Assembly (NCBI GenBank): GCA_016193395.1 | Contig: JACPSH010000006.1 | Span: 1 to 44,380, forward strand | From: Gammaproteobacteria bacterium | Lineage (GTDB): Bacteria > Pseudomonadota > Gammaproteobacteria > Eutrophobiales > Eutrophobiaceae | DNA length: 44,380 bases | Reading direction: 5' to 3' | The notes under the pieces: generated by a model | What the model was told of the DNA's origin: nothing | Database searches by the model: none | The model's input: only the letters and a program-made list of their open reading frames with translations | Translations under genes and position numbers: made by a program | Shown: positions 10,840 through 29,514 of the stretch, piece after piece | Numbering within the stretch: position 1 is the first letter of the stretch | How the letters are laid out: each line of letters starts with the position of its first letter

Positions 10840-11053
10840 CGGTCAGCAGGCTGATGCAAAACCCGGTTTTGCATCAGCCGGGGCGCCCCAAGGCAGATTT
10901 CCTGCTCCTGCGAAATCTGCACTTCCGCCATCCCTGGCGGTCGGATGGGACGCATCATTTATCAAGCACGCAAGTACTTGATATATGGAGCGAGGCCGAA
11001 GCTCCGCTTTGCTTGACGCGAGGTGCAAAAGTCCACGGATGGACTTTTGCATC
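10840..11053 (-). repeat. Composite hairpin element, copy 1 (phoU-ppk1 gap)
   Basis: This is about 214 bases of modular inverted repeats, almost identical in order to the inverted copy at 28775-29041. Read on the minus strand it has an outer hairpin GATGCAAAAGTCC...GGACTTTTGCA, a GAGC...GCTC hairpin, a TATCAAG...CTTGATA hairpin, a CCGCCAGGGATGGCGG hairpin, a GCAGATTT...AAATCTGC hairpin, and a last hairpin GATGCAAAACC-GGTTTTGCATC. The minus strand keeps a 69-codon reading frame (MQKSIRGLLHLASSK...) that is also open in the other copy. The element begins six bases after the phoU stop. The remaining DNA at 10722-10839 is the ppk1 leader, with no clear gene. Confidence 0.85.
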
Positions 11054-11059
11054 CATCTG

Positions 11060-11779
11060 TCACGAAGGAGGATTCACCTCGCGCTCCATCTCCTCGATGC
11101 TGATGTGGCGGACGTCCTTGCCCTCGACGAAATAAATGACGTTTTCGCAGATGTTGCGCGCGTGGTCGCCGATGCGCTCCATCGCCCGGGCCACCCAGAT
11201 GGCGTCCAGCGAGCTGCCGATGCTGCGTGGGTCTTCCATCATATAGGTGATGAGCTGGCGCAGCAGCGCGATGTACTGGTCGTCGGACTCCGGCTCCCCT
11301 TTCGCCACCTCCAGCGCGGCTTTGGAGTCCATGCGCGCGAAGGCATCCAGGGCGCCGTTCACCATCCGGCGCACGTGGTTGCCCATCGCGTTGATGCCGA
11401 TGTAGTACGACCTCGGGCCCTGTTTGCCGGCGAGGTCGATCGCCATCTTGGCGATCTTCTCGGATTCATCACCGATCCGCTCGAGGTCCGTGATGGTCTT
11501 GGCGACGGCCATGACGAGGCGCAAGTCACCGGCGGCGGGCTGCCGCCGCGCCAGGATGCGCGTGCACTCCTCGTCGATGGTGACCTCGAGCGTGTTGACC
11601 TTCACCTCGTTTGAGATGACTTTCTCGCCCAGTTCGGGGTTCGCCTCGGTGAGCGCGCGCAGCGCGGTGGCGAGCTGCTGCTCGACGAGACCGCCCATCC
11701 CGAGGACGCGCGTGCGGATATTTTCCAGGTCATTATCGAATTGCCTGGAGATATGCTGCGGGATTGAACTGCTGCTCAT
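11060..11779 (-). CDS. phoU: Phosphate transport regulator PhoU
   Basis: PhoU connects the PstSCAB transporter to the PhoR kinase and represses the Pho regulon when phosphate is plentiful. The 239-residue protein is two repeated three-helix PhoU domains; metal-binding-type clusters E-x3-D are visible as DLERIGDESEKIAKMA in the first and AMERIGDHARNICENVIY in the second. The N-terminus is SSSIPQHISRQFDNDLENIRTRVLGMGG. It lies 25 bases downstream of pstB in the pst operon, and a composite repeat starts directly after its stop. Confidence 0.96.
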   Translation of the reverse strand: MSSSSIPQHISRQFDNDLENIRTRVLGMGGLVEQQLATALRALTEANPELGEKVISNEVKVNTLEVTIDEECTRILARRQPAAGDLRLVMAVAKTITDLERIGDESEKIAKMAIDLAGKQGPRSYYIGINAMGNHVRRMVNGALDAFARMDSKAALEVAKGEPESDDQYIALLRQLITYMMEDPRSIGSSLDAIWVARAMERIGDHARNICENVIYFVEGKDVRHISIEEMEREVNPPS

Positions 11780-27779: not shown

Positions 27780-28424
27780 ATGTCGAGTCCTATCGGCATC
27801 CTCGGTGGCACCTTCGATCCCGTACACCACGGCCACCTCCGGCTCGCCATCGAGTGCCTGGATACGCTCGACCTGGCCGAAGTGCGGCTGATCCCCGTGG
27901 ACACGCCTCCGCACCGTGAGGCGCCCGCGGCAAGCCCGACGCAGCGCCTGAAGATGGTGCAACTGGCCGTGGAGGGGACGAATGGGTTAGTGGCCGATGA
28001 CCGCGAGGTGCGCCGCAAGGGCGTGTCCTATACGGTGGATACCGCGCGCTCGCTGCGGGGCGAATTCGGCCCCCGGCCGCTGGCGCTGGTCATGGGAATG
28101 GATGCCTTCCAGTTACTGCACACCTGGCGCCAGTGGACAGCGCTGCTCGACTATGTCCATATTATCGTCGTGAACAGGCCTGGGAGCCCGGTCGAATTCG
28201 AGAATCGCGAAGTTGCCGACCTGTTTGCCGCACGCTCCGTACCTTCCTTTGCCGGCATCGCCGCGCAGCCGTCCGGCGCGATCCTCAAGGTGGACATCCC
28301 GCTGCTCGATATCTCCGCCGCGCGCATCCGCGGACTGATCGGCACGGGCCGTGATCCCCGCTTCCTCCTGCCGCCGCCCGTGCTCGATTACATCCGCCGG
28401 GAGGGTTTATACCAAAACCAATGA
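27780..28424 (+). CDS. nadD: Nicotinate-nucleotide adenylyltransferase
   Basis: NadD makes deamido-NAD from nicotinate mononucleotide and ATP. The 214-residue protein shows the nucleotidyltransferase motif GILGGTFDPVHHGHLRLAIE with the HxGH signature, then VDTPPHREAPAASPTQRLKM, the phosphate-binding SYTVDTARSLRGEFG, and the late ISAARIRGLIGTGRDPRFLLP motif equivalent to ISSTxIR. The ATG at 27780 gives the conserved start; the longer in-frame opening comes from the repeat DNA upstream. It overlaps rsfS by four bases. Confidence 0.95.
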   Translation: MSSPIGILGGTFDPVHHGHLRLAIECLDTLDLAEVRLIPVDTPPHREAPAASPTQRLKMVQLAVEGTNGLVADDREVRRKGVSYTVDTARSLRGEFGPRPLALVMGMDAFQLLHTWRQWTALLDYVHIIVVNRPGSPVEFENREVADLFAARSVPSFAGIAAQPSGAILKVDIPLLDISAARIRGLIGTGRDPRFLLPPPVLDYIRREGLYQNQ

Positions 28425-28768
28425 CCGCGGAGGCCCTGGGCGTGGAACTGGTATCGGCCCTGGACACCATGAAGGCGATGGACATCCGCAGCCTCGATGT
28501 CCGCGGCCTGACCTCGATCACCGATTTCATGATCATCGCGAGCGGGCGCTCCGACCGGCAGGTGCGGGCGCTGGCGCAGAAGGCGCTCGAATGCGCGCGC
28601 CAGTTCAAGGTGCCGGTGCTCGGAACGGAAGGCGAGCGCGAGGGCGAGTGGGTCCTGATCGACCTCGGCGATGTCATCGTCCATCTCATGCACCCGGAGA
28701 CGCGCGCCTACTATCAGCTCGAGAAGCTCTGGTCGGTCGGCGATCGCCGGGCCTCCAAGGCCCCTTGA
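28421..28768 (+). CDS. rsfS: Ribosomal silencing factor RsfS
   Basis: RsfS binds ribosomal protein uL14 and blocks subunit joining when nutrients are short. The 115-residue protein contains the family core: ALDTMKAMDIRSLDVRGLTSITDFMIIASGRSDRQVRALA, EGEREGEWVLIDLGDVIVHLMHPETRAYYQLEKLW. The ATG overlaps the nadD stop as ATGA. rsfS is usually followed directly by rlmH; here a composite repeat of about 270 bases has come between them. Confidence 0.96.
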   Translation: MTAEALGVELVSALDTMKAMDIRSLDVRGLTSITDFMIIASGRSDRQVRALAQKALECARQFKVPVLGTEGEREGEWVLIDLGDVIVHLMHPETRAYYQLEKLWSVGDRRASKAP

Positions 28769-28774
28769 AAGGTT

Positions 28775-29041
28775 GATGCAAAAGTCCATCCATGCACTTT
28801 TGCATCTTGCGTCAAGCAAAGCAGAGCTTCGGCCTCGCTCCGTTTATCAAGCACTTGCGTGCTTGATAAACGATGCGTCCCGTCCGACCGCCAGGGATGG
28901 CGGAAGTGCAGATTTCGCAGGAGCAGCAAATCTGCCGACCGCCTGGGATGGCGGAAGTGCAGATTTCGCAGGAGCAGGAAATCTGCCGCAGGGCGCCACA
29001 GGCTGATGCGAAACGGAGTATTGCATCAGCCTGCTGCCCGC
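28775..29041 (+). repeat. Composite hairpin element, copy 2 (rsfS-rlmH gap)
   Basis: This is the inverted counterpart of 10840-11053, with the same hairpins in the same order: GATGCAAAAGT...ACTTTTGCATC (28775-28806), a perfect 12-pair TTTATCAAGCAC...GTGCTTGATAAA hairpin (28843-28870), CCGCCA-GGGA-TGGCGG, GCAGATTT...AAATCTGC, and a terminal GATGCGAAAC...TATTGCATC. A 51-base module (28886-28936) is duplicated in tandem at 28937-28987 with two mismatches. The open frame starting ATG at 28776 stays open through the duplication (to 29006) because 51 is a multiple of three. The right end lies two bases before the rlmH start. Confidence 0.85.
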
Positions 29042-29043
29042 GC

Positions 29044-29514
29044 ATGCAATTGACGCTGTTCGCCGTTGGCAGACGTGCCAGCGGCTGGCTGCGCGAAGCG
29101 ACCGCGGATTATGCAGGCAGGTTCCCCCCGGAACTCAAACTGACTATTCGTGAAATCGCGCCGGCGCGGCGCGCGGCGAGCGAGCCGAAACCGTCCGTGC
29201 TGCGCGCCGAAGCGAAAGCGATCCTGAAGGCGATCCCCGGAAACGCCCTGGTGGTTGCCCTCGATGAACGAGGCCGGCAACAAAATACGGCGGGCCTCGC
29301 ACGCGAGCTGGCGGAATGGATGGAGACGGGCCGTTCCGTAGCGTTGGTGATCGGCGGCGCCGACGGACTTGATGCTTCCGTGATCGATGGCGCCGACGCA
29401 GTCTGGTCGCTCTCCAGCCTGACCCTGCCGCACGGGCTCGTGCGGGTGCTGTTGCTCGAGCAGCTCTACCGCGCGTGGACGATCCTGAAGGGGCATCCGT
29501 ACCATCGCGAATGA
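29044..29514 (+). CDS. rlmH: 23S rRNA (pseudouridine1915-N3)-methyltransferase
   Basis: RlmH methylates pseudouridine 1915 in helix 69 of 23S rRNA. The 156-residue protein has the SPOUT-family layout: MQLTLFAVGRRASGWLREAT, ALVVALDERGRQQNTAGLARELAEW, the knot-forming VALVIGGADGLDASVI and the C-terminal SLTLPHGLVRVLLLEQLYRAW...HPYHRE. Start is the ATG at 29044, because homologous sequence begins there. The leader DNA is wholly made of the composite repeat, with no clear ribosome-binding site, so the repeat supplies the 5' untranslated region. Confidence 0.95.
   Translation: MQLTLFAVGRRASGWLREATADYAGRFPPELKLTIREIAPARRAASEPKPSVLRAEAKAILKAIPGNALVVALDERGRQQNTAGLARELAEWMETGRSVALVIGGADGLDASVIDGADAVWSLSSLTLPHGLVRVLLLEQLYRAWTILKGHPYHRE

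Follow-up and report, generated by a model that had tools for sequence, protein, structure and literature searches.

Two copies of the element in the window

If a repeat folds into a row of hairpins, holds an open frame and recurs in inverted orientation at two distant sites, what kind of element is it? The question is raised by two loci in the window, by which we mean the whole stretch of 44,380 nucleotides analysed, part of a gammaproteobacterial genome (G000). DNA alignment confirms the predicted pair of inverted copies: copy 1 (10840-11053) matches 28775-28936 at 93% identity (query 53-214) and 28991-29040 at 86% identity (query 1-49). The element is real, but its outer ends lie a few bases further out than had been proposed, beyond GATGCAAAA. 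With the borders set by the flanking target duplications and the core running CAGG...CCTG, the two copies comprise the following parts.

Copy 1 and its neighbour
11060-11779, - strand: PhoU gene; its stop TGA (11060-11062) lies within the left target position of copy 1
11060-11063, - strand: decayed left target duplication, GTGA
10847-11059, - strand: core, A type with a single module; the phoU stop is at its H6 end
11022-11053, - strand: hairpin H6, terminal inverted repeat and partner arm
10987-11005, - strand: hairpin H5
10956-10987, - strand: hairpin H4
10892-10942, - strand: single 51-bp two-hairpin module, within the H3 loop
10847-10881, - strand: hairpin H1, the other terminal inverted repeat
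10843-10846, - strand: decayed right target duplication, CTGA

Copy 2 and its neighbours
28421-28768, + strand: rsfS, identified from a C-terminal motif conserved in relatives
28765-28768, + strand: left target-site position, TTGA, of which TGA (28766-28768) is the rsfS stop
28769-29033, + strand: core, A type, two tandem modules, between rsfS and rlmH
28775-28806, + strand: hairpin H6
28841-28872, + strand: hairpin H4
28875-28881 and 28991-28996, + strand: 5' arm (GCGTCCC) and 3' arm of hairpin H3, with the modules in its loop
28886-28936, + strand: module 1, 51 bp
28937-28987, + strand: module 2, the 51-bp tandem duplicate
28999-29033, + strand: hairpin H1
29034-29037, + strand: decayed right target-site position, CTGC
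29044-29514, + strand: rlmH

Six hairpins had originally been counted. The hairpins and their order agree with that count, but the plan is one of five hairpins plus zero to two two-hairpin modules. The 51-base module was placed exactly: it is in tandem in copy 2 and single in copy 1. Folded as RNA and compared with dinucleotide shuffles, copy 1 reaches -112.6 kcal/mol (z -9.5) and copy 2 reaches -128.5 kcal/mol (z -7.7); no shuffle folded as well as either.

A dispersed family with sibling types

Are there further copies? A search of the whole genome returned 30 dispersed DNA matches at least about 100 bp long, plus shorter pieces, so the window copies are not the only ones. With up to three mismatches, the end motif TARCAGGYTGATGCAAAA has 159 matches in this genome and its reversed control 2. 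A sibling end, TARCAGGMTGTTGAAAAAC, has 81 against 1 in the control, and these partly overlap the first set. The element is short, is without a transposase gene and lies dispersed in many copies, as is characteristic of a MITE. Three sibling types are distinguished by their ends.

Type A: GATGCAAAA ends, 168-169 bp without the module
Type B: GTTGAAAAACGA ends, 168 bp
Type C: GTTGAAAAAGTCC ends, 157-158 bp

In all three the hairpins stand at the same five places, in the order H6-H5-H4-H3-H1. The original prediction knew of no named family for the element, and this agrees with Rfam, where nothing matched at the gathering score, and with the literature, in which we found neither a paper giving the element's end sequence nor one on IS5 MITEs with hairpins. 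A plant miRNA match in L012 was sub-threshold, lay outside the element and is put down to chance.

The genome also contains solo hairpins, 38-50 bp long, that have the element's ends. For a DDE transposase they would be very small substrates, and they may have arisen from full elements by deletion through 9-bp direct repeats in both end hairpins. YTAR flanks accompany such solo sites, including G000:C19:12509-12549. On the reverse strand of L050 (about 1249-1540), directly next to an A-type solo hairpin, there is a fourth composite element; it has GGAACCTCTGAAC ends, YTAR flanks, the same hairpin order and modules in two loops. At L090 (G000:C48:32940-33137) a C-type element lies within the arm of an A-type solo hairpin.

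Ends and target duplication

What do the ends tell us about how the element moved? The terminal inverted repeats are 15 bp long (CAGGYTGWTGMAAAA). Target duplications, a check proposed at the outset, are present: among 38 full elements whose TA ends are intact, 26 carry one and the same 4-mer beside CAGG and beside CCTG, against a shuffled mean of 11.4 and maximum of 20. These 4-mers are mostly CTAA, TTAA or TTAG, that is, a 4-bp YTAR duplication, and its columns 1 and 4 match in 39/49 and 36/49 cases (24.1 and 21.7 when shuffled). Neighbouring elements have one CTAA in common. At window copies 1 and 2 both duplications have decayed. YTAR is the target of the IS5 family.

The exact end motif was found in at least 116 stretches of named genomes, from many phyla. 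Four among the matches listed have the motif at either end of 1.3-1.5 kb and enclose a transposase frame.

L205, Zoogloeaceae: GATGCAAAA type of end, flanks CTAA/CTAA
L210, Sphingopyxis: flanks CTAA/CTAA
L197, Bradyrhizobium: flanks CTAG/CTAG, transposase gene apparently interrupted
L215, Methylophaga: flanks TTAG/CTAG

The transposases of L205, L210 and L215 have DUF772 and DDE_Tnp_1 and score above the cut-off of the NCBIfam IS5 profile (NF033581). With the IS5-family insertion sequences the element thus shares its terminal repeats and its YTAR duplication; it differs from them in being without a transposase gene and in having an interior made of hairpins. A profile of these transposases had no match in G000 (an assembly 97% complete in 60 contigs, from which repeats may be missing), and we therefore infer mobilisation in trans. 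Among 29 other genomes the same profile matched in G031 only and in none of the remaining 28. Class-wide, the exact end motif is carried by 43 of 369 genomes and its reversed control by 0.

We conclude, with a probability of roughly 0.87, that the family consists of small non-autonomous mobile elements whose termini and insertion behaviour are those of the IS5 family and which insert beside genes, often exactly in the stop codon.

Insertion sites

How do the elements sit with respect to genes? They are intergenic. Of the 43 adjacent gene 3' ends in gene calls based on codon usage, 23 have the stop codon at the first three bases of the element. Counted more crudely, 49 of the 87 long frames that enter an element are in this frame, where 29 are expected (p 9e-6). 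At both window copies the stop codon, TGA of phoU and TGA of rsfS, stands in the target position. The simplest reason for this over-representation is that YTA|R, completed by the R of the element itself, yields TAA or TAG and leaves the protein unchanged. An early count had suggested that the H6 end prefers gene 3' ends; it was dropped, the numbers being 24 versus 19 with the codon-usage gene calls.

The rsfS-rlmH junction that holds copy 2 is 275 bp long here and 0-5 bp long in most relatives examined; in the remainder some gaps are a little longer and one is 132 bp. In G003, which belongs to another genus of the family, the junction has no element. The proposed search for empty sites is answered by this one insertion site at the level of gene distances, the flanking intergenic bases not being alignable base by base across genera.

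A conserved row of hairpins

Is the hairpin row itself conserved? Five hairpins of fixed order and length (157-170 bp) are common to the three sibling types and to elements elsewhere. In the A copies 97.3% of cells pair, a figure that falls to 45% or less when the partner is slid by 1-3 columns, and two-sided changes occur in 10 of 29 consensus pairs (shuffle maximum 6). Nine representatives, including L252, L345, L347, L348 and L354 from other gammaproteobacterial families and L224 from a deltaproteobacterium, show 44-88% pairwise identity and 44-62% identity to the A type at nearly the same length. Each folds to about five hairpins in much the same row, although L347 pairs differently in its minimum-energy fold; the evidence for this row is the individual folds, since H4, misplaced by the sequence alignment, is missing from the RNAalifold consensus of the nine.

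A single long hairpin is the fold of other MITEs that share these ends, so the row of hairpins belongs to this group and not to the ends. MITEs 138-149 bp long, with the same or similar IS5-type ends and one long imperfect hairpin, are seen in several families, at L336-L342 and L349-L353; they probably form a further group of MITEs belonging to the same transposons.

Could the five-hairpin plan be a selected, transferable interior, acquired separately by the IS5-type ends A, B, C and GGAACCTCTGAAC and growing by hairpin units in its loops? We consider this a tentative idea and on the whole an unlikely one. If true, it would mean mobile DNA conserved by shape, not by sequence, across classes of Proteobacteria.

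Alternative explanations

Might the element instead be a short protein-coding repeat, comparable to the Rickettsia palindromic elements? The frame beginning MQKSI is open on the same strand as predicted, and the duplication keeps it: most A and B copies are open throughout, and modules of 51 bp and 48 bp alike preserve the frame. However, codon positions 1, 2 and 3 vary at 8.4, 9.8 and 7.5% in 42 A copies from two genera, and the distinct changes among these copies include 34 that are synonymous (37 expected) and 3 stops (4.6 expected). All five C copies have TGA in frame, Pfam has no match for the frame, and the elements are intergenic. The comparison of synonymous and non-synonymous change thus goes against a peptide: since there is neither a codon-position bias nor a synonymous excess, the frame is not maintained as protein, and a coding repeat is improbable in the extreme. 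Left unrecognised, the repeat would pass in annotation for small hypothetical genes next to ordinary operons. Two other kinds of mobile DNA can be weighed against the IS5-type ends. Every intact end shows TA and neighbours share TA, and a TA duplication of the IS630 or Tc1-mariner type was our first reading. It gave way to YTAR because four columns match; adjacent elements share CTAA, and the enzymes of the complete transposons bounded by these ends are of the IS5 family, so that a TA-duplicating MITE is now very improbable. The elements had also been likened to a mosaic of REP/BIME or MITE modules. The MITE half of that likeness holds, given the IS5-type termini and the YTAR duplication; the REP/BIME half is unsupported. 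It would have palindromes moved by a RAYT transposase through single-strand hairpin mobilisation, and the element does share with REP/BIME its hairpins, its dispersed intergenic sites, its composite, mosaic look and a genome with one RAYT gene. Yet the locus of this single RAYT (Y1_Tnp) gene, L040 (G000:C22:55953-56282), is without these repeats around it and carries neither the element's ends nor its modules. Moreover, IS200/IS605-like single-strand transposition leaves no target duplication, whereas these elements duplicate a 4-bp target and their ends match IS5-family transposons. There is very little likelihood of a REP/BIME origin.

Is the element a structured RNA that the host uses, as a 3'-UTR stabiliser, an attenuator or a processing site, and that is kept by selection on transcripts? 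Strong folds, two-sided changes and a frequent location just after a stop codon would be expected of such an RNA, and so would the position of copy 2, which separates rsfS from rlmH, two genes that in relatives usually adjoin. On the other hand, the H6-first strand shows no preference for G-U pairs (10 versus 23 A-C cells; 8 versus 14 distinct), so they do not demonstrate selection on that RNA; there is no clear orientation preference relative to genes (24 versus 19 tails); and palindrome correction predicts the same two-sided changes with no function at all. We judge a host-used RNA unlikely, though by no means negligible.

Proposed explanation

The element is thus very probably a non-autonomous, modular MITE with the ends and target choice of the IS5 family. 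An IS5-family transposase, now absent or unassembled, would have moved it in trans, presumably by binding the outer arms of the end hairpins, and insertions in stop codons would spare the upstream protein. How might the hairpins stay perfect while their sequence drifts? Most simply, we propose, by palindrome correction, in which the template switches between the arms of one hairpin; selection for structures that transcripts tolerate possibly helps to keep them. We regard this putative correction as the simplest cause of the two-sided changes, one that needs no selection. Replication errors of this kind would likewise add modules to the loops or duplicate them there.

Modules and known composite repeats

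Which described repeats resemble this one? ERIC, Correia/NEMIS and RUP have TA duplications, and end sequences of their own, unlike the element's. Together with other bacterial MITEs they are, like the element, non-autonomous, short, intergenic and palindromic, with terminal repeats and a target duplication (review PMC10969869); none was found among them with the element's termini or five-hairpin order. Of the systems described so far, BOX, from Streptococcus pneumoniae and S. suis, comes closest: it is a modular MITE with a variable number of inner modules, stem-loops, inverted repeats like those of a resident IS and open frames without evident protein homologues, which often supplies the stop codon of a gene (36 of 58 overlapping CDSs; PMC3049150). 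Our element works like BOX, a likeness of description and not of membership: it too has a variable inner module, IS-like ends, stop codons at its border and open frames. It differs in phylum and sequence, in having IS5-type ends with YTAR, in carrying its modules inside hairpin loops, with nesting, and in its three sibling types, whose stems are rewritten while the order of the hairpins stays.

In types A and B the module is 50-51 bp long, consists of two hairpins (CCGCC..GGCGG and GCAGATTTC..GAAATCTGC) and lies within the H3 loop; type A has none, one or two of them there, type B none or one. A related unit stands within the H6 loop at L010, L014 and L016. In G003 a unit is nested in the loop of another (L166, L169-L172, L176), and at L170 a small hairpin edge is repeated several times. 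Target duplications are exact in 9 of 27 module-bearing copies and in 19 of 30 module-free copies (p 0.03); the greater decay in the former fits module gain in situ after insertion, although this is only suggestive. Dozens of copies per genome, in which modules are absent, single, double or nested and which include three sibling types with rewritten stems, form a natural data set that bears on how arm complementarity is kept up, by template-switch repair or by RNA selection, and on how composite repeats such as BOX grow.

In S. suis, the same inner modules of BOX occur between different outer modules (PMC3049150). Here, too, the module is found inside elements with other ends: at L032 (G019, about 1300-1750) a module of the same kind lies in an element whose ends are quite different (GCAGTCCGATCTCACGGTGGC). 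At L120 (G000:C55:81555-81850) module variants with repeated GTCATCCCTGGCG edges form a tandem array outside elements with known ends.
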